Below, piece by piece: positions 4,271 through 63,852 of a stretch of 64,000 bases of DNA. Numbering within the stretch: the first letter of the stretch is position 1; each line of letters opens with the position of its first letter. Under the pieces are notes generated by a model. The model saw nothing but the letters and a program-made list of their open reading frames with translations. It had not been told where the DNA came from and ran no database searches. A program made the translations under genes and the position numbers. The DNA comes from Neptunicoccus cionae (GTDB lineage Bacteria > Pseudomonadota > Alphaproteobacteria > Rhodobacterales > Rhodobacteraceae), in NCBI RefSeq assembly GCF_002860325.1, contig NZ_PKOJ01000007.1, positions 186,001-250,000 on the forward strand, in the 5' to 3' direction.

Positions 4271-6730
4271 ATGGCTGTTGCGTTTCGCTGGTTGCTGCGG
4301 GGATTTCTGGGGCTCGTCCTGATCATCGCGCTTGTTCTCTCGCTTATTTACTATTTTGCGACCCGCTCTTTACCCGATTACGATGCAAGTTTCCGCTTGC
4401 GCGGGCTGGACGGGCCTGTGGAAATCGTGCGTGACACCAATAATGTCCCCCATATTTTCGCAGATCAGGCCGAAGACGTGTATTTCGGTCTCGGATTTGC
4501 CCATGCGCAGGACAGGTTGTGGCAGATGACAATGCTCCGGCGTACGGCGCAGGGCCGTTTGAGCGAACTTTTCGGGGCCGAGACAGCCAAAATTGACGAT
4601 TTCGTAAGGCGCCTAGATCTGGCTGAATTGTCCCGCGCTTCTTTTGAGTACCAGACCGAAGAGGTAAAAGCGGCACTACGGGCCTATGCTGCGGGTGTGA
4701 ATGCCTGGCTTGGCGTTGTGCAAAAGGATGCTCTGGGCCGTGGCGCGCCGGAGTTTTTCCTGTTTTCGCCTGAAATAGAACCCTGGACGCCGGCGGACAG
4801 TCTTTCGATCCTGCGGGTCATGGCCTTGCAGTTGTCAGGCCATCTGCGAAATGAAGTCGTGCGGGCACAGGTTACTCTTGCAGTGGGTAAAAACCGGGTG
4901 CGCGACATCCTTCCCGATGCCCCGGGCCAAGGGCGGGTCGCATTGCCGGAGTATGCCGATCTGTTTAAAAATCCCCCGACGGAATTTGCTGCCCTTACGC
5001 CACAACACCCGCTGGACCCTGTCGCGCCGTTTGATATGGCCGGAGCCAGCAACGCCTGGGCCGCGGCGAGCACGCGATCTGCCACAGGGGAACCGATCCT
5101 TGCCAATGATCCTCATCTTGCGCTCTCGGCGCCTTCGATCTGGATGCTAGCACGGATGGAGTTTCCGGACGGTGGTGTGATCGGTGGCTCTATACCGGGA
5201 ATGCCGCTGATCCTGTCGGGACGCTCGGCTGCTCTCGGCTGGGGGCTGACCACCAGCAATCTGGATGATCTGGATGTCTATGTTGAAAAACTGAACCCCG
5301 ACAATCCAAATGAATATCTGACACCAGACGGCTACAAACCGTTCCGCACCCAGCAGGTTCTGATGCGGATCAAGGATCAGCCGCCCCGTACAATTCAAAT
5401 GCGCTGGACCGAAAACGGGCCTGTGATCCCGCCTAGCCACTATGATCTCGGCACGATTACACCGCCCGACCATGTGACCAGCATCCACTGGGCCGCGCTT
5501 GATGCGAATGACCAGTCGATGACCGCTGCAATTAATCTGATGCGTGCAAAGTCTATCCCCGCTGCACGGGCTGCCCTGTCGTTTTTCAAATCACCAAGCC
5601 AGAATGTTACCCTTGCAGACAGGAACGGCGTCATGTTGCAAATGATTGGCAAGCAACCGGCCCGCGATCCGGGCCACCGCAGTCAGGGACGCTATCCGTC
5701 ACAAGGCTGGCTGCCGGAAAACCGCTGGAACAGCTATCTGCCGTTTGAAGACAACCCGAGCGTGCGCGATCCGGCCAGCGGCATTGTGGCGAATACCAAC
5801 AACAAGATTACAGATGAACCTTTCCCGCGCCATGTGTCCCACAGCTGGGGCGATACCTACCGCTTCTTGCGGCTGTCCTCGCTTATGAACGACCGCGAGG
5901 TCCACACACGGGACAGTTTCATTGAGGCACAGTTGGACACGGGTTCTTTCGCGGCTGTGTCCCTGTTGCCGCTGGTGGCCAAGGAACTGTGGTTCACGGG
6001 CGAATCCGCCCCAGCGGGTACGCCGGAACGTCAACGACAGATCGCGCTTGAGATGCTGGCTGCGTGGAATGGCCAGATGGACGAACATATTCCCGAACCG
6101 CTGATCTATGCGGCCTGGATGCGCCAGTTGCAGAACCGTTTGATCCGCGATGAACTGTCAAACCTCGCCGATCATTTCCCCCGCCCCGATCCTGTGTTTC
6201 TTGAACGGGTCTATCGCAATGTGGAAGGCGCAGGTGTCTGGTGTGATATCCGGCAATCGACCAAAGTAGAAACCTGTGCAGATATCGCGCGGATGTCCCT
6301 TGATGCTTCCATTTTGGAACTGACCGAGAAATACGGAAGCCATATTGACAGTTGGCGTTGGGGACAGGCCCATCAGGCCCGGCATGATCATCAGGTATTG
6401 GGTGAAGTGCCGATCCTGTCGTGGTTTGCAAACATCCGGCAGGAAACTTCGGGCGGCGACCAGACACTGATGCGGGCGCGTACCAACGGCACCGGCTCCG
6501 AGCCTTATGCAAATGTGCATGCTGCCGGCTTCCGGTCAGTCATTGATTTTTCCGATCCGGACAGTTCGGTCTATGTGATTTCCACCGGTCAGTCTGGGCA
6601 TTTCCTGTCCCGCCATTATGACGATCTGGCCGGATTGTGGCGGCGGGGAGAGTACATCCTGATGTCCCTTGATCCCGATCTTGCGCGCGGCGGTGCTGTG
6701 GGGATCAACCACTTGCTGCCGGTTGAATAG
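4271..6730 (+). CDS. Penicillin acylase family protein (Ntn hydrolase)
   Basis: Amide hydrolase of the penicillin G acylase / acyl-homoserine-lactone acylase superfamily, normally exported and self-cleaved into two chains. An N-terminal membrane anchor (FRWLLRGFLGLVLIIALVLSLIYYF) is followed by the family motif DTNNVPHIFA and, near residue 265, GASNAW, where the Ser is the expected nucleophile freed by autoprocessing. The 819-residue length fits the family. I start at ATG 4271 with a GAGG element upstream; the GTG/ATG start at 4217 would place extra polar residues ahead of the anchor. The natural substrate (AHL, beta-lactam or other amide) is unknown. Confidence 0.83.
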   Translation: MAVAFRWLLRGFLGLVLIIALVLSLIYYFATRSLPDYDASFRLRGLDGPVEIVRDTNNVPHIFADQAEDVYFGLGFAHAQDRLWQMTMLRRTAQGRLSELFGAETAKIDDFVRRLDLAELSRASFEYQTEEVKAALRAYAAGVNAWLGVVQKDALGRGAPEFFLFSPEIEPWTPADSLSILRVMALQLSGHLRNEVVRAQVTLAVGKNRVRDILPDAPGQGRVALPEYADLFKNPPTEFAALTPQHPLDPVAPFDMAGASNAWAAASTRSATGEPILANDPHLALSAPSIWMLARMEFPDGGVIGGSIPGMPLILSGRSAALGWGLTTSNLDDLDVYVEKLNPDNPNEYLTPDGYKPFRTQQVLMRIKDQPPRTIQMRWTENGPVIPPSHYDLGTITPPDHVTSIHWAALDANDQSMTAAINLMRAKSIPAARAALSFFKSPSQNVTLADRNGVMLQMIGKQPARDPGHRSQGRYPSQGWLPENRWNSYLPFEDNPSVRDPASGIVANTNNKITDEPFPRHVSHSWGDTYRFLRLSSLMNDREVHTRDSFIEAQLDTGSFAAVSLLPLVAKELWFTGESAPAGTPERQRQIALEMLAAWNGQMDEHIPEPLIYAAWMRQLQNRLIRDELSNLADHFPRPDPVFLERVYRNVEGAGVWCDIRQSTKVETCADIARMSLDASILELTEKYGSHIDSWRWGQAHQARHDHQVLGEVPILSWFANIRQETSGGDQTLMRARTNGTGSEPYANVHAAGFRSVIDFSDPDSSVYVISTGQSGHFLSRHYDDLAGLWRRGEYILMSLDPDLARGGAVGINHLLPVE

Positions 6731-54399: not shown

Positions 54400-55086
54400 G
54401 TGGAACCCCTTTTGACAGAACCGATCCCACGATCCCGCCTCAACCGCGCCGCACATCTGGTGGTGCGGCTTGGGGTTATACTGCTGCTGGCGCTGGTGTT
54501 GCACTGGGCGCTGGACTGGCTCGGGGCGGAAGTGAAACGGGTCGAAACCGGCGGCAAGAAAGTTATGCTTACGGGCATGTTGGTCCTGATCCTGCTGGTC
54601 TATGCGCTCGTGATTGCAGTGCCTTTCGTTCCGGGAGTGGAGATCGGGTTCGCCTTGATGGCGATGCAAGGGGCAAAGATCGCCCCTTTTGTTTTTATCT
54701 TCACCTTCATGGGGTTGGCGCTTGCCTTTCTGGTGGGGCATCTTCTGCCCTATCCGGTACTCTCGAGGTTTCTCGAGAGTTGGGGGCTGCGTAAGGCGGC
54801 CCGGATGGTCAGGGACACGCAATCCCTTGATCTGGAACAACGCACCAGTTTGATGAAATCCCGGCTACCTGGGTTTCTTGGGCCGTTGTTTGTGAACTGG
54901 CGCTATGTGTTTCTGGCGATTCTGATCAACATTCCCGGCAATATGGTGCTTGGCGGTGGTGGCGGCATCTGCTTTTCCGCAGGGCTTAGCCGTTTGTTCC
55001 GTCCGGCTTGGGCACTGATTACACTGGCGTTGGCAGTGGCCCCGGTGCCCGCTCTGTTCTACTTTGCAGGCATAACACTGTTCTGA
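54400..55086 (+). CDS. Polytopic membrane protein of unknown function
   Basis: A 228-residue protein with about five hydrophobic segments. The first (LVVRLGVILLLALVLHWALDWLG) is at residue 25; later ones are MLVLILLVYALVIAVPFVPG, FVFIFTFMGLALAFLVGHLLP and a final pair around NIPGNMVLGGGGGICFSAGLSRLF. The PFVPGVEIGFALM and NIPGNMVLGGGGGI segments are loosely like DedA/VTT-domain proteins, but I cannot assign it. It is co-directional with the VOC and activator genes, so could be a transporter or anchor for the cluster. Confidence 0.75.
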   Translation: MEPLLTEPIPRSRLNRAAHLVVRLGVILLLALVLHWALDWLGAEVKRVETGGKKVMLTGMLVLILLVYALVIAVPFVPGVEIGFALMAMQGAKIAPFVFIFTFMGLALAFLVGHLLPYPVLSRFLESWGLRKAARMVRDTQSLDLEQRTSLMKSRLPGFLGPLFVNWRYVFLAILINIPGNMVLGGGGGICFSAGLSRLFRPAWALITLALAVAPVPALFYFAGITLF

Positions 55087-55208: not shown

Positions 55209-57269
55209 ATGAACACTCCGAACGATCCACTGGTAATTTTCACCCCTTCCGGCAAAAGGGGGCGCTTTGCTGTTGGCACACCGATTTTGACCGCTGCACG
55301 CCAGCTTGGGGTGGATCTGGACAGTGTCTGCGGAGGCCGCGGGATTTGTTCGAAATGCCAGATACAACCGTCGTATGGCGAGTTTTCCAAACATGGTGTG
55401 ACCGTCGCGGATGACGCCCTGTCCGAATGGAATTCGGTAGAGGAGCGCTATAAATCCAAGCGGGGCATGATCGACGGGCGCAGGCTCGGCTGTCAGGCAC
55501 AAGTTCAGGGCGATGTCGTGATTGACGTGCCGCCCGAAAGTCAGGTCCACAAGCAAGTAGTGCGCAAACGGGCGGAGGCGCGGGACATCGTCATGGACCC
55601 GTCCACAAAACTGTTCTTTGTCGAGGTACAACAGCCCGACATGCATGACCCAACCGGCGATCTGGAACGGCTGGTCAAAGCGCTGCGCGAACAATGGGAC
55701 CTGCCCCATCTGGAGGCCGATCTTGGCATTCTCCAGACAATGCAGCCAATCCTGCGCAAGGGCGAATGGAAGGTCACTTGTGCGGTACATCTGGGCGACG
55801 ACATGTTCAGCCCGCGTATCATGCACATCTGGCCCGGTTTTTACGAAGGCTCCATCTACGGGCTGGCGGTTGATCTTGGTTCGACTACTATCGCAGGGCA
55901 TCTGTGTGATCTGCAAACCGGCGAAGTGGTGGCCTCTAGCGGGTTGATGAACCCGCAGATCCGCTTTGGCGAGGATTTGATGAGCCGTGTCAGCTATTCC
56001 ATGATGAACGAGAGCGGCGCACAGGAAATGACCCGCGCCGTGCGGGATGGCATGAACACCCTGTTCACCAATATCGCGGCCGAAGCGGGCATCGACCAGT
56101 CTCTGATCGTGGACGCAGTGTTTGTGTGCAATCCGGTGATGCACCACCTGTTCCTTGGGATTGATCCGTTTGAACTGGGTCAGGCCCCTTTCGCGCTGGC
56201 GAGTTCGGACAGCATTTCCCTGCGTGCGCTGGAATTGGGCCTTAACCTGCATCCGGCGGCGCGGGTGTATCTGCTGCCGTGTATCGCAGGCCATGTAGGG
56301 GCGGATGCGGCGGCTGTGGCCCTGTCCGAAGCACCAGACAAATCCGAAGACCTCGTGCTTGTGGTAGATGTGGGCACCAATGCGGAAATTCTGCTGGGGA
56401 ACAAGAAAAAGGTGCTCGCCTGTTCCTCCCCCACGGGTCCTGCTTTTGAAGGGGCGCAGATTTCATCCGGCCAGCGCGCGGCCCCCGGTGCGATTGAACG
56501 GGTGGAGATCGACCCCGTCACCAAAGAACCCCGCTTCCGCGTCATCGGCTCTGACCTGTGGTCCGACGAGGAAGGATTTGCCGAGAGCATCCTGTCGAGC
56601 GGAATCACCGGCATTTGCGGGTCCGGCATCATTGAAATGGTCGCGGAAATGCGGCTGGCAGGGATTGTGGACGGTCCGGGGCTGATCGGCTCCCCTGCGC
56701 AAGTGGGCACCGACCGCTGTTTCCTTGACGGGCGCACCCATTCCTATCTGGTCTGGGACGGTACTGCCGACGGCGGGCCGCGCATTACGGTCACAAACCG
56801 CGACATCCGCGAAATCCAGATGGCCAAAGCAGCGCTGTATTCCGGTGCGCGGTTGCTGATGGATAAGTTTGGTGTGGATACGGTTGACCGCATCGTGCTG
56901 GCGGGCGCATTCGGGGCCCATATCTCGCCCAAACACGCGATGGTGCTGGGCATGATCCCCGATTGCATCTTGGATAAAGTCACTAGTGCTGGCAACGCCG
57001 CTGGAACGGGCGCACGAATTGCGTTGCTGAATGTGGGCTCCCGACGGGAGATCGAGCAAACGGTGAAAGCAATCCACAAGATCGAAACCGCAATCGAACC
57101 CCGCTTTCAAGAGCATTTCGTCAACGCCAGCGCCATTCCGAATAGTGTTGAACCCTTCCCGATCCTTGAAACACACGTCACCCTGCCGGATGTGAACTTC
57201 AACACCGGCGGCGAAGGTGACAGCGCATCAGGCGGTGGTGGCGGCAGACGCCGCCGCAGACGCGGCTAG
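55209..57269 (+). CDS. RACo-like corrinoid activator: [2Fe-2S] ferredoxin plus ASKHA domain (DUF4445), Arg/Gly tail
   Basis: ATP-dependent reductive activator of corrinoid proteins, 686 residues. The N-terminal plant-type ferredoxin domain has Cys ligands in SVCGGRGICSKCQI and GRRLGCQAQVQ. A linker and a C-terminal ASKHA region follow: GLAVDLGSTTIAGHLCDL, LVLVVDVGTNAEILLG and GICGSGIIEMVAEM. In methanogenic and acetogenic methyltransferase systems such proteins (RamA uses 4Fe-4S, RACo 2Fe-2S) restore the Co(I) state. The last 16 residues are GGGGGRRRRRRG-like, matching the tail on the corrinoid methyltransferase. No corrinoid protein gene is in this window. Confidence 0.88.
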   Translation: MNTPNDPLVIFTPSGKRGRFAVGTPILTAARQLGVDLDSVCGGRGICSKCQIQPSYGEFSKHGVTVADDALSEWNSVEERYKSKRGMIDGRRLGCQAQVQGDVVIDVPPESQVHKQVVRKRAEARDIVMDPSTKLFFVEVQQPDMHDPTGDLERLVKALREQWDLPHLEADLGILQTMQPILRKGEWKVTCAVHLGDDMFSPRIMHIWPGFYEGSIYGLAVDLGSTTIAGHLCDLQTGEVVASSGLMNPQIRFGEDLMSRVSYSMMNESGAQEMTRAVRDGMNTLFTNIAAEAGIDQSLIVDAVFVCNPVMHHLFLGIDPFELGQAPFALASSDSISLRALELGLNLHPAARVYLLPCIAGHVGADAAAVALSEAPDKSEDLVLVVDVGTNAEILLGNKKKVLACSSPTGPAFEGAQISSGQRAAPGAIERVEIDPVTKEPRFRVIGSDLWSDEEGFAESILSSGITGICGSGIIEMVAEMRLAGIVDGPGLIGSPAQVGTDRCFLDGRTHSYLVWDGTADGGPRITVTNRDIREIQMAKAALYSGARLLMDKFGVDTVDRIVLAGAFGAHISPKHAMVLGMIPDCILDKVTSAGNAAGTGARIALLNVGSRREIEQTVKAIHKIETAIEPRFQEHFVNASAIPNSVEPFPILETHVTLPDVNFNTGGEGDSASGGGGGRRRRRRG

Positions 57270-57282
57270 GGTCACATATTTC

Positions 57283-57316
57283 AACCCTGCACCCTTTTAA
57301 AACAGGCTGCAGGGTT
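57283..57316 (+). terminator. Hairpin ending the one-carbon cluster
   Basis: AACCCTGCA (57283-57291) and TGCAGGGTT (57308-57316) make a nine-base-pair stem 14 bases past the activator stop. Only a three-base T-run follows (TTT 57315-57317), so termination may be partial. Confidence 0.6.
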
Positions 57317-57382
57317 TCCCGCGTCAAGCCCCCTATCCGCGATTGACGGCAATCTGCAAAGCCGCTAAATCACCCCGACAGA

Positions 57383-57456
57383 GCGGGTATGGTGAAAAGG
57401 TATCACGGCAGCTTCCCAAGCTTTAGTTACGAGTTCGATTCTCGTTACCCGCTCCA
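57383..57456 (+). tRNA. tRNA-Gly(CCC)
   Basis: A 74-base tRNA with encoded CCA. Acceptor GCGGGTA (57383-57389) pairs with TACCCGC; D-stem GTGA/TCAC; T-arm ACGAG-TTCGATT-CTCGT. The anticodon loop is TTCCCAA with CCC at 57415-57417, which decodes GGG. The anticodon stem GCAGC/GCTTT has one C-T mismatch and a G-T pair at its base. Its 3' 48 bases are repeated 1.8 kb downstream, marking the left edge of an integrated element. Confidence 0.85.
57409..57456. repeat. Left attachment-site repeat (attL) within tRNA-Gly
   Basis: The 48-base 3' half of tRNA-Gly, from the anticodon stem to CCA, matches 59225-59272 with a single difference (G at 57420, A at 59236). This is the standard footprint of site-specific integration into a tRNA gene. 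The span between the copies is 1816 bases. Confidence 0.88.
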
Positions 57457-57758
57457 AGGTTTCCGCTGAAAATTTGGAAAATATTTAATGGGGGGCTTGT
57501 AACCGCAATATGAGCCCCTAAGTGGTAGGATGCCCCGGGGCAAAGGACCCGGATGACCAGTGTTAAGGCCCGCAAGCGCTATCCGCGCCCGGGTCAGGCG
57601 GGTCGGCGTGATCCAGGTCATGTCGCATCCTTCCATGCACAACGTGGTTACAACATACCACGCTAGGTTTTCTCGTACCAAAAGCCGCTAAAGCGGCGGA
57701 TGGGAGCTAGGTCAAATAGCCCGGGCATTTGAAGAACGGAGTTCATTGATGCCCGGGT
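57457..57758 (+). ncRNA. Putative structured non-coding RNA upstream of the reverse transcriptase
   Basis: This stretch lacks a convincing gene and is dense in inverted repeats: GGGGGCTT/GAGCCCCT (57491-57498 with 57512-57519), the palindrome TGCCCCGGGGCA (57531-57542), GACCCGG/CCGGGTC (57546-57552 with 57589-57595), CGTGGT/ACCACG (57643-57648 with 57657-57662), GCCGC/GCGGC (57684-57688 with 57693-57697) and CCCGGGCAT/ATGCCCGGG (57720-57728 with 57749-57757). A possible -10, TATTTA, is at 57482-57487, giving a start near 57490. Position and density match the ncRNA templates of DRT2 and DRT9 systems. Transcript ends are guesses. Confidence 0.6.
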
Positions 57759-57761
57759 TTT
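57719..57761 (+). promoter_or_regulatory. Terminator-like hairpin overlapping the RT start codon
   Basis: CCCGGGCAT (57720-57728) pairs over nine bases with ATGCCCGGG (57749-57757), extendable by a G-T pair, and is followed by TTTT (57758-57761). The second arm contains the RT ATG at 57749, and the GGAG ribosome site (57738-57741) lies in the loop, which itself can form GAAC/GTTC. It may end the ncRNA, block RT translation, or both. Confidence 0.65.
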
Positions 57762-59122
57762 ACCTACATTCCGAAAACGAGTTTGACCCCTCGACCGACG
57801 ATTTCATTCTCAAGTCGGTATCGAAGGAGCGCAAATACAAGCACTTCGACTTACCGGTACCCGAAGATCAACGAGAGCAGACCATCGACTTCGGTTCGAA
57901 TATAAAGCCGCACCGCTTCTTGCCCCTACTCGGTTTCAACGACGTGACCCGACGGCTAGTTCGCGTCAAAGATGATGCTGGAAATTGGCTCCGGGACGAC
58001 GGCGGGGAGTTCGTCCGAAGGGAGAAAGTCAAAACCCGACCGATCCGCTTTGCAGGTCATGAGGACGCCGCGTACTTGCAGGGCTATGCCGCTCACCTTA
58101 ACGGTTACTACGAGAGCGCCCTTGCCTCCGATGGGAGTTCAGGCTCCGTCCTGGCTTACCGAAAGGGTGGCGGAACCAATATTCACCATGCGAAATCGTT
58201 GTTCGACGAGATCCTAGACAGGCAAGAATGCTCGGTCTTCGCAATGGACATTTCTGGATTCTTCGATTGCCTGGATCACAAGCTGCTTCGGGATGAGATC
58301 GCCGGACTACTAGGTGTCAGCCGCCTAGATTCCCATCATGGCCGTGTCTGGCAGAACATTACAAAGTACTCTTGGGTCGAAACCGACGACCTGGACAAGT
58401 TGCTCGGGCGAAGACGCAACGGGCATGGTCGGGTTTGTTCACCACAGGATTTCATTGCACATGTGCAAGGCCGGAAGAATGGCCTGATCCGGCGCCACGA
58501 GCTGGATTATGGCATCCCACAAGGCACGCCTGTCTCCGGTCTCTATGCCAACATATACCTGCGCTCCTTTGACCGGGAGATGATCGCCCTCTGCTCGAAA
58601 TATGGTGGCTCTTACCGACGATATTCGGATGACATTGCAGTCGTACTGCCCTTGGGCGCGAAAGCCAGTCACGTGGTTGCGGTGGTTGAAAAGATGCTGG
58701 CCGACTCCGGCCTCGCAATATCGGTTGAGAAGACCGAGACCGCCGACTTCTCAGGCGGGCTTCTGATCTCGACGAAGCCAATCCAGTACCTTGGCTTCAC
58801 CTTTGACGGGCGCCACACTCTGATCCGGTCCTCTTCCATCGACGCCTATCTCAGGAAAATGCGGCGCGGGATTCATGCGAAGTTGGTTGCTGCTAAGTCG
58901 AAAGAGGTACCGTCGTTTCAGGTCTATGAGCGGGAAATGCGGAGCCGATACACTCACGCAGGGAAACGCCGAAACTTCATCCGCTACGCGCACAAGGCGG
59001 CCAAGATCATGGGAAGCCGTGAGATCAAGCAGCAGGTCAAGAACCACATCAAATGGTTCGACCGCGCCTGGAGAGATGAGGTAACTCGTGTCTATGGCGG
59101 CCTCGTGACCACCGATCCTTAA
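57749..59122 (+). CDS. Reverse transcriptase, UG/DRT type (putative DRT2-like anti-phage RT)
   Basis: RNA-directed DNA polymerase of 457 residues. Palm motif A is AMDISGFFDCLDH (catalytic Asp167), the template-grip motif is GIPQGTPVSG (255-264), motif C is RRYSDDIAVV with Asp294 and Asp295, and motif D/E includes VEKTET and QYLGF. Retron hallmarks (NAxxH, VTG) and a group II intron maturase/X domain pattern are absent. The segment RPIRFAGHEDAAYLQGYAAHLNGYYESAL followed by VLAYRKGG is like, from memory, defence-associated UG2/DRT2 RTs. ATG 57749 with GGAG seven bases before it is preferred to TTG 57746. It is the only protein gene of a tRNA-integrated element. Subclass uncertain. Confidence 0.85.
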   Translation: MPGFYLHSENEFDPSTDDFILKSVSKERKYKHFDLPVPEDQREQTIDFGSNIKPHRFLPLLGFNDVTRRLVRVKDDAGNWLRDDGGEFVRREKVKTRPIRFAGHEDAAYLQGYAAHLNGYYESALASDGSSGSVLAYRKGGGTNIHHAKSLFDEILDRQECSVFAMDISGFFDCLDHKLLRDEIAGLLGVSRLDSHHGRVWQNITKYSWVETDDLDKLLGRRRNGHGRVCSPQDFIAHVQGRKNGLIRRHELDYGIPQGTPVSGLYANIYLRSFDREMIALCSKYGGSYRRYSDDIAVVLPLGAKASHVVAVVEKMLADSGLAISVEKTETADFSGGLLISTKPIQYLGFTFDGRHTLIRSSSIDAYLRKMRRGIHAKLVAAKSKEVPSFQVYEREMRSRYTHAGKRRNFIRYAHKAAKIMGSREIKQQVKNHIKWFDRAWRDEVTRVYGGLVTTDP

Positions 59123-59144
59123 CATTTTTTGGCACATCGCCATC

Positions 59145-59163
59145 GCCTACAAACTGCCTACAA
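59145..59163. repeat. Tandem GCCTACAA repeats near the right end of the element
   Basis: GCCTACAA occurs at 59145-59152 and again at 59156-59163, an 11-base period (one helical turn). They lie 60-80 bases inside the right attachment repeat. Tandem sites like these are common near the ends of elements moved by tyrosine recombinases, where they serve as arm-type binding sites. No recombinase gene is present. Confidence 0.5.
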
Positions 59164-59224
59164 TCATGGTTGGAATTCACCGCCAACCACTTGATGTAGA
59201 AAAAGTTAAAGGCGACTTCTCTCT

Positions 59225-59272
59225 CAGCTTCCCAAACTTTAGTTACGAGTTCGATTCTCGTTACCCGCTCCA
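59225..59272. repeat. Right attachment-site repeat (attR), truncated tRNA-Gly copy
   Basis: Second copy of the 3' half of tRNA-Gly(CCC) including CCA, 47 of 48 bases identical to 57409-57456. The lone difference (A at 59236) would break a pair at the top of the anticodon stem, and there is no 5' half, so this copy is not a functional tRNA. It marks the right border of the RT element. Confidence 0.88.
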
Positions 59273-59462
59273 GTCCCCTCCGAATTGATCCGTGTTAAAC
59301 CGCTGGGTTTACGCCCGTTTCCTGTGATTGCACTGCGGCTGCGCTACGTGATCACGCAACCACACGAACTTGTGACTTACAAAACCAATCCGCGTCTGCC
59401 TGACCGCCGTATCCCTTGCACAACACGCCGATAGATGGCGTTTCAATCTAGGGAGAACAATC
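59273..59462. other. Intergenic region after the integrated element
   Basis: Host DNA between attR and the fasciclin gene. No gene or RNA is recognised; it should hold the promoter of the fasciclin gene. Confidence 0.45.
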
Positions 59463-60029
59463 GTGAAAAATATACTGGTAGGTGCAGTGGTCGCAGGTCT
59501 TTTGGCTGGGGGCGCCGCGTTTGCGGAAAGCCATGGCATGAAAAATCCGATGGTTGGTGGCGCAGAAATGTTTGCGGACAAAAACATCGTTGAGAATGCT
59601 GTAAATTCCGCCGATCACACCACGCTCGTCGCCGCTGTCAAAGCTGCCGGTCTGGTGGATACGCTGGCAGGCGAAGGTCCCTTCACAGTCTTTGCACCAA
59701 CAAATGACGCTTTTGCCGCCCTGCCCGATGGCACTGTGGACATGCTGCTGAAACCGGAAAACAAAGAGATGCTGACCAAAATTCTGACAGCGCATGTTGT
59801 TTCCGGCAAATGGACGGCGTCGGACATCGTGGCAGCCACGAAGAAAAGCAAAGACGGGTTTTTTCACTTTAACGCGGTATCCGGCGATGCCTTGTCGGCA
59901 AAACTGACCCCGGGTGGTCAGGTGTTCATCTATGACGAAAGCGGCAATGCCTATAAGGTTACAACCGCAGATGTGATGCAGTCGAACGGCGTCATCCATG
60001 TGGTGAATGGAGTGCTTGTGCCGAAATAA
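59463..60029 (+). CDS. Secreted fasciclin (FAS1)-domain protein
   Basis: Periplasmic or surface adhesion-type protein of 188 residues. The signal peptide (MKNILVGAVVAGLLAGGAAFA, cleavage before ES) is followed by one FAS1 domain with GPFTVFAPTNDAFAALPDG and the closing NGVIHVVNGVLVPK. It resembles the bacterial MPB70-like single-domain proteins. The start codon is GTG at 59463 with GGGAG eight bases upstream. The gene is alone between the RT element and convergent pgi. Confidence 0.92.
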   Translation: MKNILVGAVVAGLLAGGAAFAESHGMKNPMVGGAEMFADKNIVENAVNSADHTTLVAAVKAAGLVDTLAGEGPFTVFAPTNDAFAALPDGTVDMLLKPENKEMLTKILTAHVVSGKWTASDIVAATKKSKDGFFHFNAVSGDALSAKLTPGGQVFIYDESGNAYKVTTADVMQSNGVIHVVNGVLVPK

Positions 60030-60071
60030 TCCAAGACGATAAACAGGCACGCATGACGGGCAGTCTGGCGG

Positions 60072-60099
60072 AGGCTCCGGTTGGTAACAGCCGGAGCCT
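60072..60099. terminator. Bidirectional hairpin between the fasciclin gene and pgi
   Basis: AGGCTCCGG (60072-60080) and CCGGAGCCT (60091-60099) form a nine-base-pair stem with a ten-base loop, followed by TTTGCC on the plus strand. It lies between two convergent stops and is nine bases from the pgi stop. Confidence 0.75.
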
Positions 60100-60107
60100 T
60101 TGCCGTA

Positions 60108-61712
60108 TTAAAGAGTTGCGAGCAACCCGCGGGTGGAGCCGTCCTTATCCTCGGACGTGGCCTCGCCTTCGATCAGGGGCAGCATCCGCGTGGCGAGCAC
60201 CTTGCCCAGTTCCACACCCCATTGATCAAAGCTGTTGATGCCCCAGATCACCCCTTCCACAAACACACGGTGTTCATAGAGCGCGATGATCTTGCCGAGC
60301 GTTTTCGGGTCAAGGATGTTGTACATCATGGTCACGCTGGGACGGTTGCCCGGAAACACGCGGTGGGCGGCCTGTTTTTCCAGTTCTGCCCCTTCAAACC
60401 CCTGTTCGCGCATTAATTCACGGGCTTCATCCATGCTGCGCCCGATCATCAATGCCTCGGACTGGGCGAGGCAATTGGCCAGCAGCAATCGATGCTGGTG
60501 GGCCAGTTCGCTTTCATGGCCACGCCGTGCGACCAGAAACTCGCAAGGAACAACGCGGGTGCCCTGGTGGATTAACTGATAGAAAGCGTGCTGGCCGTTT
60601 GTGCCCGGCTCTCCCCAGACAATCGGGCCGGAGTGACGGGGCAGCGGATTGCCCTCCATATCAACGCCTTTGCCGTTGCTCTCCATATCAAGCTGCTGGA
60701 GATAGGCCGGAAGCCGCAATAGCCGCTGGTCATAGGGCAGCACCGCGCGGGTGGCGTAGCCGCAGATATTGCTGTGCCAGATCCCTACAAGCGCAAGCAG
60801 GACCGGAAGGTTCTCTTCCAACGGTGTTTCGCGGAAGTGCGTGTCCATTTCCTCTGCGCCCTGAAGGAAGTCTGTGAAGTTCTCGGGGCCAATGGACAGC
60901 ATGACCGAAAGACCGATCGGTCCCCAGACCGAATAGCGCCCGCCAACCCAGTCGGCAAAGCCGAACACATGGTTTTCGGGGATGCCAAATTCCGCAGTTT
61001 TATCCCGCGCTGTAGACAGTGCCGCCAGATGGTCGCCGATCCGTTCTTCCGATACCGCTTGCAACAGCCACTTCTTACCGGTTTCGGCGTTTGTCATCGT
61101 CTCTATGGTTGTAAACGTTTTGGACGCAATGATCAGCAGGGTTGTGGCCGGATCAAGCCCCTTCAGCGTGTCGTGGATGTCTGCCCCGTCCACGTTGGAC
61201 ACAAAATGTACACGCGGGCCGTCGTGATACGGCGACAAGGCAATATTTGCCATGACAGGGCCCAGATCCGAACCGCCGATCCCGATATTCACCACATCAG
61301 TAAACGGCGCGCCGCTGGCAGAGGCCAGTTCACCTGAACGTACCCGAGCCGAGAAGGTTTTCATCGCCTCTAGCGTTTCCAGAACATCCGGCATCACATC
61401 GACCCCGTCCACCAGCACAGGCCGCCCCGACAGGTTTCGCAGGGCGGTATGCAACACGGCCCGATTTTCGGTCTGGTTTATTGCGTTACCTGCAAACATG
61501 GCGTCCCGTTTGGCTTCAACACCACAGGACCGCGCAAGGTCCAGAAGTAGGCTTTTTGCCTCGGCATCCAGATTGGTCTTGGAATAATCCAGCAGATAAT
61601 CCCCGCATCTGGCAGAGAATGATGCGAAACGTTCGGGATCGTCAAACAGTCCCAAAATGGAACGCGACGCATTGGTTTCAAAGTTTCCAGACAGGGACTG
61701 CCAAATGCTCAT
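60108..61712 (-). CDS. pgi: Glucose-6-phosphate isomerase
   Basis: Interconverts glucose 6-phosphate and fructose 6-phosphate. The 534-residue protein has the signatures VNIGIGGSDLGPVMA, FTTIETMTNAETGK, GGRYSVWGPIGLS and the C-terminal GINSFDQWGVELGK. It is the last gene of zwf-pgl-pgi, 11 bases after pgl, so hexose phosphate recycling is co-expressed with the oxidative entry steps. Confidence 0.95.
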   Translation of the reverse strand: MSIWQSLSGNFETNASRSILGLFDDPERFASFSARCGDYLLDYSKTNLDAEAKSLLLDLARSCGVEAKRDAMFAGNAINQTENRAVLHTALRNLSGRPVLVDGVDVMPDVLETLEAMKTFSARVRSGELASASGAPFTDVVNIGIGGSDLGPVMANIALSPYHDGPRVHFVSNVDGADIHDTLKGLDPATTLLIIASKTFTTIETMTNAETGKKWLLQAVSEERIGDHLAALSTARDKTAEFGIPENHVFGFADWVGGRYSVWGPIGLSVMLSIGPENFTDFLQGAEEMDTHFRETPLEENLPVLLALVGIWHSNICGYATRAVLPYDQRLLRLPAYLQQLDMESNGKGVDMEGNPLPRHSGPIVWGEPGTNGQHAFYQLIHQGTRVVPCEFLVARRGHESELAHQHRLLLANCLAQSEALMIGRSMDEARELMREQGFEGAELEKQAAHRVFPGNRPSVTMMYNILDPKTLGKIIALYEHRVFVEGVIWGINSFDQWGVELGKVLATRMLPLIEGEATSEDKDGSTRGLLATL

Positions 61713-61723
61713 TTTAAAATTCC

Positions 61724-62401
61724 TTAATCCGCGTAATGGGTTATGGCCTGTTCCTGAACGATCCGGACCGGCGCTTCAAGGGGGGATCGGGCCGACTGTG
61801 CCTGTGCAAGGGCGGTTTTCTTAACAGATCCCGCGATCAGGATATGAACCGCTTTGGCCGCCTGCAACACGGGCGCTGTCAGTGTCAGGCGGGGTTCGGG
61901 CGCGTTTGGCGCACGCATGGGTAAAAGAACCGGCGCTTGCGGGTCCAGCGCCTCTGCCAGCAGATCCGCTTCGGGGAAGATACTTGCGGTATGCATATCC
62001 GCGCCCATACCCAGAACACAAACATCCAGCGGGAGGGCGGATTCAATCCCTTCGCGCAGACTTTCAAGCACATCTTCCGGTGCCTCCGCTGCCTTATAGA
62101 AGGGTATTAGCGTTGCAGCGGCTGCATTGTCCTGCAACAGATTTTCGCGCAGAAGCCGTGTGTTGGAACGCTCGGACGCTTCCGGCACGAACCTTTCATC
62201 CGTCAGCATCACCTTGACCTTGGACCAGTCCAGATCCGCTGTGCGCAGCCGATGGAAAAACGGCGCCGGTGTGGTCCCGCCCGGAACCGCAAGTGTTGCA
62301 GTTCCGTTTGCCTCTAGAGCGGCGTGCAATTGTTTCTCTACGATGTCGGCCAAACCTTCAAACAGGGCGTCGCGGTTGTCGTATTCGATAAACTCGCTCA
62401 T
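61724..62401 (-). CDS. pgl: 6-phosphogluconolactonase
   Basis: Hydrolyses 6-phosphogluconolactone in the Entner-Doudoroff and pentose phosphate routes. DevB/SOL-family features are ATLAVPGGTTPAPFFHRL, VMLTDERFVPEASERSNTRLLRENLL and DVCVLGMGADMHTASIFPEA (commonly GMGxDGHTASLFP; here ADMH). The length of 225 residues is normal. Its start overlaps the zwf stop by four bases. Confidence 0.94.
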   Translation of the reverse strand: MSEFIEYDNRDALFEGLADIVEKQLHAALEANGTATLAVPGGTTPAPFFHRLRTADLDWSKVKVMLTDERFVPEASERSNTRLLRENLLQDNAAAATLIPFYKAAEAPEDVLESLREGIESALPLDVCVLGMGADMHTASIFPEADLLAEALDPQAPVLLPMRAPNAPEPRLTLTAPVLQAAKAVHILIAGSVKKTALAQAQSARSPLEAPVRIVQEQAITHYAD

Positions 62402-63852
62402 GGTTTGATCTCCCGCCAGCGGCGTCCGTCCTTATGCAGCAGCATCAGACTGTCATCCGGTCCCGAACCGCCCGGATCGTAAGGTACAGGGCGGCTGCCC
62501 GCCTCCTGCCAAGCCTCGATGATGGGATCGACCCAAGCCCATGCAGCCTCGACCTCGTCGCCGCGCATGAACAGGGTCTGGTCGCCCCGGATCACATCCA
62601 TGATCAACCGCTCGTAAGCGTCCGGCATGACAGAGACCTGATCGCCAAGCGCATCTGCAAAGGACATATCAAGGGGCACTTCGGTCAGGCGCATACCGCC
62701 GGGTCCCGGCTCCTTGATGGTTACACGCATGGTGATTCCCTCATCCGGTTGCAGCCGGATCACCAGAACGTTGCCCTTGCGGTTGAAATCCCCTTCAAAG
62801 ATAGAATGAGGCGGATCCTTGAACACGATGGCGATCTCGGACATCCGCCCGCGCAGGCGTTTACCGGTACGCAGATAGAACGGCGTACTGGCCCACCGCC
62901 AGTTCGCCACTTTCACCTTCATCGCAATGAAGCTTTCGGTTTTGGATTCTGGATCTTCCGCGTGTTCGACATAGCTGGCCATATCACGACCGGCAGAATA
63001 CTGGCCGCGGACCACTTCGGACGGGGCCACAGGTTCCAGCGCGCGGATCACTTTCAGCTTTTCATCGCGCACCGCATCGGCCCCGTATTTGCTGGGCGGT
63101 TCCATCGCAGACAGACACAACAATTGCATCAGATGGTTCTGAACCATATCGCGCATGGCGCCGGATTTGTCATAGTATCCCCCCCGCCCCTCTACGCTGA
63201 CGGTTTCAGCAACAGTGATCTGCACATGATCCACATGTTGAGCGTTCCACAAAGGTTCGAACAACGCATTACCAAACCGCACCGCCATCAGGTTCTGCAC
63301 GGTTTCCTTACCAAGGTAATGGTCGATCCGGTAAATCTGGTGTTCGTCAAAACAGGCCCGCAGCTCCGCGTTCAGTGCTTTTGCAGTCTCCAGATCGTGG
63401 CCAAACGGTTTTTCCACGACGATCCGGCTGTGTTCGTCGGTAATACCATGCCCTGATAGCTTGCGGGCGATTTCGCCAAACAGGCTCGGCCCGACCGAAA
63501 AATAAACCGCATGGATCATATCGGGGCGCAGTTTTGATTTCAGTTCCTTCCAGCCGGTATCTCCGAACACATCCAGAGACACGTACTCCAGCATTTCCAG
63601 AAACTGGGCCACCGATTTGCTGTCTTTGGCTGTATCGCCCGCAAATTCCTTCAGCGCATCCTTTACGAAGTCGCGAAACCCTGCGTCGTCAAGCTCCCCC
63701 CGCGAGGCGCCAATGACTTTGGCCGTTTCGGGCATCTGCCCTGCGCACATCCGACGGAACAGGCCGGGCAGGATCTTGCGCCGGGCCAGATCGCCTGTTG
63801 CGCCTATGATGATCAAGTCGAATGGATCAACCGGTATAGTTTTAGCGACCAT
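62398..63852 (-). CDS. zwf: Glucose-6-phosphate 1-dehydrogenase
   Basis: Oxidises glucose 6-phosphate with NADP+ or NAD+. The 484-residue protein shows LIIIGATGDLARRKILPGL, EKPFGHDLETAKALN and RIDHYLGKETVQNLMAVRF with the active-site His/Lys region. It leads the operon zwf-pgl-pgi. A perfect nine-base inverted repeat 34-66 bases before its ATG may be an operator for a sugar-phosphate-sensing repressor. Confidence 0.96.
   Translation of the reverse strand: MVAKTIPVDPFDLIIIGATGDLARRKILPGLFRRMCAGQMPETAKVIGASRGELDDAGFRDFVKDALKEFAGDTAKDSKSVAQFLEMLEYVSLDVFGDTGWKELKSKLRPDMIHAVYFSVGPSLFGEIARKLSGHGITDEHSRIVVEKPFGHDLETAKALNAELRACFDEHQIYRIDHYLGKETVQNLMAVRFGNALFEPLWNAQHVDHVQITVAETVSVEGRGGYYDKSGAMRDMVQNHLMQLLCLSAMEPPSKYGADAVRDEKLKVIRALEPVAPSEVVRGQYSAGRDMASYVEHAEDPESKTESFIAMKVKVANWRWASTPFYLRTGKRLRGRMSEIAIVFKDPPHSIFEGDFNRKGNVLVIRLQPDEGITMRVTIKEPGPGGMRLTEVPLDMSFADALGDQVSVMPDAYERLIMDVIRGDQTLFMRGDEVEAAWAWVDPIIEAWQEAGSRPVPYDPGGSGPDDSLMLLHKDGRRWREIKP

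Follow-up and report, generated by a model that had tools for sequence, protein, structure and literature searches.

A probable DRT2 phage-defence cassette in a minimal insertion at a tRNA-Gly gene of Neptunicoccus cionae

Introduction

What is a single reverse transcriptase gene doing between two copies of the end of a tRNA gene? The question is raised by a stretch of 64,000 nucleotides from Neptunicoccus cionae, a member of the Rhodobacteraceae (contig NZ_PKOJ01000007.1, positions 186,001 to 250,000; hereafter the window, with positions counted from its first letter). Between two tRNA-Gly(CCC) 3′ ends, the window carries an insert of 1816 bp that holds a Drt2 reverse transcriptase (RT) and an RNA element kept in its relatives; nothing else was recognised in it. 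The locus is very probably a phage-defence cassette of the type-2 defence-associated reverse transcriptase (DRT2) kind, present as a minimal site-specific insertion. It belongs to DRT2 by protein family, RNA and the architecture of neo, the endless reading frame of such systems, and what makes it a variant is its jump motif, together with an RNA hairpin that spans the RT start codon. DRT2 is a known defence type; in this branch the signal for copying is another one, and the cassette is unusually small for an insert. The observation goes beyond chance, because the empty site is found within the same genus and the RNA element is kept in all 11 close relatives compared. Anti-phage defence, neo production and continued movement of the cassette are inferred.

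A Drt2 reverse transcriptase inserted at tRNA-Gly(CCC)

The insert and its borders comprise the following features.

57383–57456, plus strand: tRNA-Gly(CCC), intact, called by ARAGORN; its 3′ 48 bp (57409–57456) are the left attachment (att) copy, and the same tRNA stands at the same-genus empty site
59225–59272, plus strand: right att copy, 47/48 identical (98%) to the 3′ part of the tRNA
57457–59272 (equivalently 57409–59224), plus strand: whole inserted cassette, 1816 bp, from the empty sites and the list of open reading frames (ORFs)
57749–59122, plus strand: Drt2 RT, 457 amino acids (aa), from the ORF and profile matches

With the left flank and tRNA as query, matches were obtained in 22 of the genus's 33 genomes searched, the source genome counted. 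In two of them, G1034 (L054) and G417 (L055), the left flank is 97 and 94% identical, and the sequence corresponding to window positions 55000/55009–57456 is joined to that of 59225–62500 through a single 48-bp core. Two more genomes with the same neighbours (G598 and G120) likewise have one place only for the core. The insert is thus exactly 1816 bp long. The att repeats of the tRNA end, together with a site that is precisely empty in relatives, are those of a tRNA-targeted integrative element.

Besides the RT gene, 11 ORFs of at least 50 aa lie inside or overlap the insert. No integrase was found among the ORFs of 57457–59272: a Pfam scan of seven of the 11 gave no match above cut-off (one lay below it, MukB_hinge at E=0.058), and the other four are 50–56 aa long. 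Between the tRNA and the RT gene lie 292 bases, with a conserved structured element at about 57532–57766 that extends a few codons into the RT gene.

The RT is read from an ATG at 57749 to a stop at 59122 and contains the motifs AMDISGFFD, GIPQGTPVSG and YSDD. Assigned on curated cut-offs of hidden Markov models (HMMs), it passes the NCBIfam Drt2 equivalog with 440.4 bits (cut-off 390). The best PADLOC model is Drt2 (E=9.8e-126), with Drt9 at E=1e-16, and the top matches in the PDB are 9c0i and its kin, labelled Drt2 (E=8e-70), which align over residues 26–432 with several small gaps. The original prediction, made from the letters of the window, had described a single RT gene with these three motifs, preceded by non-coding DNA rich in inverted repeats and flanked by a 48-base repeat of the tRNA-Gly 3′ half, and had placed it in a DRT-type system closest to DRT2; all of this is borne out. 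The antisense neo layout, the precise empty site and the hairpin over the RT start codon go beyond that prediction.

A further observation concerns the insertion site. In contig 136 of another genome of the genus, G1036 (L063:5390–5431), a partial tRNA-Gly end stands in the same neighbourhood without a tRNA, and some 4 kb of other genes reach from it to the left-flank gene; no integrase was recognised in this neighbourhood by inspection of ORFs of at least 180 aa. Judging from this contig, the tRNA-Gly site may host other islands.

A conserved RNA that reaches into the reverse transcriptase gene

The upstream element was compared in an alignment (A1) of 11 sequences, namely the window, L001–L005, L008, L010 and L020–L022, whose RTs are 61–76% identical to that of the window. 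It omits L009 (upstream 1000 bases identical to those of L003), L007 and L031 (the window's own copy), the plasmid L027 that gives L010, as well as clade B and every more distant Drt2 locus. About 220 nt before the RT gene, together with its first codons, align in all 11 with a mean column identity of 85%. The RNAalifold consensus has 63 pairs, in which 98.5% of cells are paired, against 34–46% for any slid version. Further, 18 cells are changed on both sides of a consensus pair, compared with a mean of 7.7 in shuffles, and none of 500 shuffles reached 18. The comparison of the upstream region among RT homologues that the original prediction had proposed yields both an element kept in 11 of 11 close relatives and a covarying stem. 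The following parts of the predicted RNA are referred to below.

57496–57530, plus strand: candidate promoter of the non-coding RNA (ncRNA); CTTG invariant in 11/11, then a C-rich −10-like block
57532–57534, plus strand: GCC just ahead of the handle, predicted by RNAalifold to pair with the acceptor GGT at 57666–57668 and close the template loop, like stem-loop 2 (SL2) of the Klebsiella pneumoniae DRT2 (KpDRT2); three pairs, no compensatory change
57535–57552, plus strand: 5′ handle hairpin CCGGG/CCCGG, its last base being template base 1; RNAalifold, 100% of cells paired, no compensatory change
57672–57706, plus strand: 3′ scaffold stem-loop with compensatory changes, four pairs having both sides changed
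57708–57766, plus strand: long 3′ hairpin GCCCGGGCAT...ATGCCCGGGT with an outer stem, the longest hairpin, enclosing the ATG of the RT gene

RT codons 2–4 (CCC GGG TTT) are identical in 11 of 11 sequences, so that three of three degenerate codons with an invariant residue are kept here, versus two of 194 elsewhere in the gene. This points to selection at the RNA level across the gene start. An Rfam scan of 57260–59400 returned the tRNA only and no family for the element.

The CTTG and C-rich block ahead of the ncRNA are possibly a non-housekeeping promoter. A heat-shock (RpoH) promoter was considered, but the upstream region of groES in the same genome has no CTTG...CCC match. In Jannaschia, tandem 22-base repeats lie upstream of the Drt2 gene (L001:2602–2736).

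A predicted neo repeat on the antisense strand

In KpDRT2 (PMC12039810, PMC11100668), head-to-tail copying of a template that lies between two ACA motifs yields joined DNA in which both a promoter with 17-bp spacing and an endless frame are restored, and the Neo product arrests the infected cell. The acceptor motif lies in the right half of SL2, and defence is tied to the match between the motifs (PMC11100668). The corresponding layout is predicted in the window as follows.

57552–57665, plus strand: predicted rolling-circle RT template, 114 nt (38 codons), with donor GAT at 57552–57554 and acceptor GGT at 57666–57668
57552–57665, minus strand: predicted neo repeat AWYVVTTLCMEGCDMTWITPTRLTRARIALAGLNTGHL (start at the M in 'DM'), stop-free over the repeat junction
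57561–57566, minus strand: −35-like half TTAACA, which precedes the −10 only after concatenation
57652–57657, minus strand: −10-like half TATGTT in TGG-TATGTT (TGN-extended −10), matching the position of a perfect TATAAT in clade B
57628–57633, minus strand: neo Shine–Dalgarno sequence GAAGGA, 6 nt before the ATG at 57621–57619; the sense letters CATCCTTC are identical in 11/11

An antisense TTAACA is found near the template 5′ end in 10 of the 11 sequences (L002 has TAAACA), and an antisense TGG-TATRNT near the 3′ end throughout the window clade, a weaker −10 than in Kp. When the template ends are joined, the two halves stand at 17-nt spacing and are followed by the Shine–Dalgarno sequence and the ATG; in all 11 units GAAGGA lies six bases ahead of an in-frame ATG. 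With GAT/GGT as ends, the units are 111, 114 or 117 nt long, multiples of three in every case. Read as circular units, one antisense frame is open in 11/11 and the other two in 0/11.

For a 17-nt spacer after joining, the unit has to span 117 alignment columns, a number divisible by three; 16- and 18-nt spacers have the same promoter-letter score but break the frame. Eighteen junction positions would allow the 17-nt spacing, and GAT/GGT is the only one that pairs in all 11 sequences (with one T–G wobble), the others pairing in at most two. Three insertions or deletions fall within the template, each of 3 nt; those outside, counted by eye, measure 2 or 3, 8, 3, 1, and 1 or 2 nt. The neo frame also has the highest BLOSUM z score of the six frames (3.24; next antisense frame 2.22). 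With the observed score as the threshold, none of 3000 column permutations matched the joint pattern of promoter, junction, frame and donor/acceptor pairing, and three of 3000 matched the promoter score alone.

Two other junctions were considered and rejected. AGG (A1 columns 40/142, counted from 0) removes the −35, and with ACC (A1 columns 30/154, likewise from 0) the unit length is divisible by three neither in the window nor in L022, as worked out by hand. The neo frame is also seen in the genome as an antisense ORF of 78 codons (57445–57681, minus strand), which has no Pfam match.

From this anatomy and the comparison, the Drt2 RT would bind the ncRNA and copy the 114-nt template at 57552–57665. 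At the template 5′ end, the nascent cDNA end, a copy of GAT, would re-pair with the GGT beyond the template 3′ end and copying would restart, giving head-to-tail repeats. Double-stranded junctions would then create a TTAACA-17-TATGTT promoter followed by GAAGGA and ATG, and an endless neo frame of 38 codons per repeat. On the KpDRT2 model (PMC12039810, PMC11100668), the neo product would arrest the infected cell.

Comparison with other DRT systems

The likeness to KpDRT2 is extensive. It includes an RT-only protein of the Drt2 equivalog, an RNA ahead of the gene that is made up of 5′ handle, template and 3′ scaffold, antisense promoter halves that are out of order and come to 17-nt spacing once joined, a Shine–Dalgarno sequence with ATG, and a stop-free repeat divisible by three. 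The acceptor GGT takes part in an SL2-like pairing, as the Kp acceptor lies in the right half of SL2 (PMC11100668). The differences lie in the jump motif (GAT/GGT with one wobble pair, versus ACA/ACA) and in the repeat length (111–117 nt in the window clade and 114 nt in the window, versus 120 nt in Kp). The 3′ hairpin of the window clade contains the RT start codon, a feature read in this clade. The locus is filed as a DRT2 variant because its jump motifs differ from ACA-1/ACA-2.

Jump letters other than ACA are also predicted elsewhere. Clade B (L011–L014 and L023), from the same family, has RTs only 35–36% identical to that of the window and shows the same neo architecture at corresponding positions: TTGACA-17-TATAAT, CGTT/CGTT ends, a 129-nt repeat that like the window's contains WY, and one open frame in 5/5. 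The junction divides the 17-nt spacer into 9 and 8 bases, at positions corresponding to those in the window. As an example, L011:1501–2763 carries the 129-nt repeat RWYNVTVEVRAMLSVSFNLALVAAMLFGIVLPGHHKEVDKFNA. The perfect promoter, the CGTT ends and the repeat length set clade B apart from the window clade, and its five templates count as one observation because they are nearly identical. In a Photobacterium Drt2 locus (L024), where the acceptor differs from ACA, a one-sequence scan gave TTGACA/TATAAT, ACAGAT/ATAGAT ends and a unit of 111 nt. A candidate unit of 141 nt with ATACC/ATACC ends and TTGACA/TATATT lies about 420 bases before position 5001 in the locus of a Salegentibacter (Bacteroidota) Drt2 that is 28% identical (L006). 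If any self-matching triplet is accepted as jump motif instead of ACA, the neo layout appears in two alphaproteobacterial clades and, as a candidate, in a Bacteroidota member. This suggests a rule for finding neo in other branches, namely 17-nt spacing, self-matching ends and frame.

DRT9 (UG28) resembles the window system in pairing an RT-only protein with an ncRNA and shares an ancestor with DRT2, and it makes poly(dA) (PMC12489045). The window RT differs from it in family, as the two PADLOC values given above show.

Origin and mobility of the cassette

The cassette would have been inserted by a tyrosine integrase, either supplied in trans or since lost. The second possibility makes it a relic, comparable to cis-mobilizable elements (CIMEs), of a larger integrative element, and this is a serious candidate although somewhat less than even. 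CIMEs have lost their integration and transfer genes and kept attL and attR (PMC5704250), and the window cassette, like them and other integrase-less islands, is flanked by both att copies with no integrase seen. Larger forms do exist: L022, the most divergent member of the set (61% RT identity), lies in a 5.1-kb island (L061:5275–10464) between 50/50 repeats of a tRNA-Phe(GAA) end. Adjoining the tRNA there is an integrase-like ORF of 418 aa, with 21.4 bits for Phage_int_SAM_1 (cut-off 22.3) and 17.4 for Phage_integrase (cut-off 27.1), and the island also carries a resolvase ORF (92.8 bits). It is a possible larger form of the window cassette. Against decay stands the cassette of a Neomegalonema metagenome-assembled genome (L002), in which a Drt2 72% identical over its best segment lies directly behind tRNA-Gly(CCC), in an insert of 1812 bp with a 46/46 repeat. 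This second insert at tRNA-Gly has nearly the length and content of the first; that separate decay should have left just these two parts in another lineage is less likely, and the att copies remain 47/48 and 46/46 identical. The window cassette differs from CIMEs in being 1.8 kb long, in holding one complete defence system, and in recurring with that content at this tRNA in a second lineage.

Alternatively, Rhodobacterales may carry a class of minimal 1.8-kb mobile DRT2 cassettes at tRNA-Gly(CCC) that lack an integrase of their own and are moved in trans by the integrases of temperate phages using the same att core. The same proposal holds that, as the ncRNA 3′ hairpin shares sequence with the RT message, one transcript could serve as template RNA or as RT mRNA, not both, which would control the RT dose. 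This combined proposal is rather unlikely; its odds are lowered by L022, whose larger island with an integrase-like gene makes loss of the integrase a stronger alternative. A possible mover can be named. In a viral collection, 40 stretches contain the last 25 bases of the tRNA, 36 of them inside a complete tRNA-Gly and four not (L076, L093, L097 and L101). The matches in L076 and L093 start in the opening 50 bases of the contig, and truncated tRNAs may account for them. The viral contig L101 encodes a tyrosine integrase of 347 aa (L101:1582–2715; PF00589, E=2.8e-23); some 43 bases separate its end from a core of 47 bases identical to the window tRNA-Gly end, and L097 (1–220) appears to overlap the same sequence. 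tRNA-Gly(CCC) is present in six records of the plasmid collection, and the 48-base core in 33 records of the phage collection. If movement in trans were true, phages would spread a gene that acts against phages.

Two results weigh against mobility of the cassette as described. Eight of the 11 set members have no bracketing exact repeat of at least 16 bases in the flanks compared, three of which are truncated (1.3 kb on the right of L001, and 1.4 and 0.26 kb on the left of L005 and L062, respectively). Further, the L101 integrase had no match at E≤1e-20 in the 33 genomes of the genus, in a search run without a positive control; it is linked to the cassette by the shared core only, because of that result. 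One of the eight members, L010, lies on a Ketogulonicigenium plasmid (L027) and adjoins a recombinase gene. In the Photobacterium plasmid, a tyrosine recombinase gene follows Drt2 (L024:3358–3954).

With its empty site known, the 1.8-kb insertion illustrates the small size that an inserted defence unit can have; what moves it is the question that follows. A search of titles and abstract openings in the open literature, with supplements and subscription papers outside it, found no report of such cassettes, nor of DRT2 in alphaproteobacteria.

Alternatives to a translated neo

Several observations count against the neo prediction, and some of them favour a different effector. An antisense frame open in all 11 sequences was kept by 221 of 5000 column permutations, so stop-freedom alone is not rare, and the codon-position bias is slight (15, 13 and 18 variable columns at positions 1, 2 and 3, of 39 each). 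The window promoter, TTAACA with TATGTT, is weak at 9/12 matches. The one-sequence scan did not return the window ncRNA because that score of 9 lies below the threshold of 10; therefore the case for neo rests on comparison. The same scan passes nine of 374 unrelated window stretches. It gives an out-of-frame alternative of 85 nt in L024, L006 has a second in-frame candidate of 111 nt, and the upstream regions of four more distant Drt2 loci (L025, L028, L029 and L030) gave no such layout, which tells against the suggested rule. The published ACA-1/ACA-2 signals were not found in the window ncRNA, and it has no conserved in-frame ACA pair. As for the RNA itself, six pairs have both sides changed compared with 4.6 in shuffles; this is not unusual (73 of 500), and covariation therefore rests mainly on one 3′ stem.

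The frequency of stop-freedom and the missing ACA motifs would suit a Drt2 RT that acts through its cDNA, as DRT9 does through poly(dA), without a translated neo and with the antisense frame a by-product of RNA structure. The annotation of Neo is also described as more difficult for the more divergent clades of DRT2, and other mechanisms as possible (PMC11100668). Such a mechanism is nonetheless improbable here. The joint pattern of promoter, junction, frame and pairing that no permutation reproduced argues for a translated neo, as do the three-base insertions and deletions, the top coding score in the neo frame, the in-frame Shine–Dalgarno sequence and ATG, and the recurrence of the layout at corresponding positions in clade B.

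A small basic protein read from the sense strand of the conserved region (MTSVKARKRYPRPGQAGRRDPGHVASFHAQRGYNIPR in the window), in place of the antisense neo, can be given very little credit. The window does have an open sense frame with an ATG, but that frame contains a stop in L001, L002 and L008; as a circular unit a sense frame is open in 6/11 versus 11/11 for the antisense, and the sense z scores are 0.04 to 1.06. The sense protein was rejected on these stops and low coding scores.

An RT of the group II intron, retron or diversity-generating retroelement type, placement in which the original prediction had named as counting against itself alongside a proposed HMM search, is practically out of the question: a generic RVT_1 domain is present, and the Drt2 model is passed while the next best NCBIfam model, group II intron maturase, scores 79.9 bits (cut-off 300), Drt3a 56.7 (cut-off 200) and retron St85 46.1 (cut-off 235), so that group II and retron classes lie far below their cut-offs.

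Distribution of related proteins

Drt2-like proteins are uncommon in the genomes drawn. They were found in 13 of 394 genomes drawn from the family (E≤1e-20), seven of 390 from the order (E≤1e-45) and three of 385 from the class (E≤1e-40), draws that overlap and in each of which the source genome is counted. A protein-level search of viral contigs with peptide patterns gave no match. At E≤1e-10, relatives occur in three of 50,697 records of the phage collection and 26 of 72,556 of the plasmid collection. Within the same family, L015–L019 form a third group of longer Drt2-like RTs with open frames of 501–566 aa; three of them (L015, L016 and L019) score 294–351 bits, under the Drt2 cut-off, on partial sequences.

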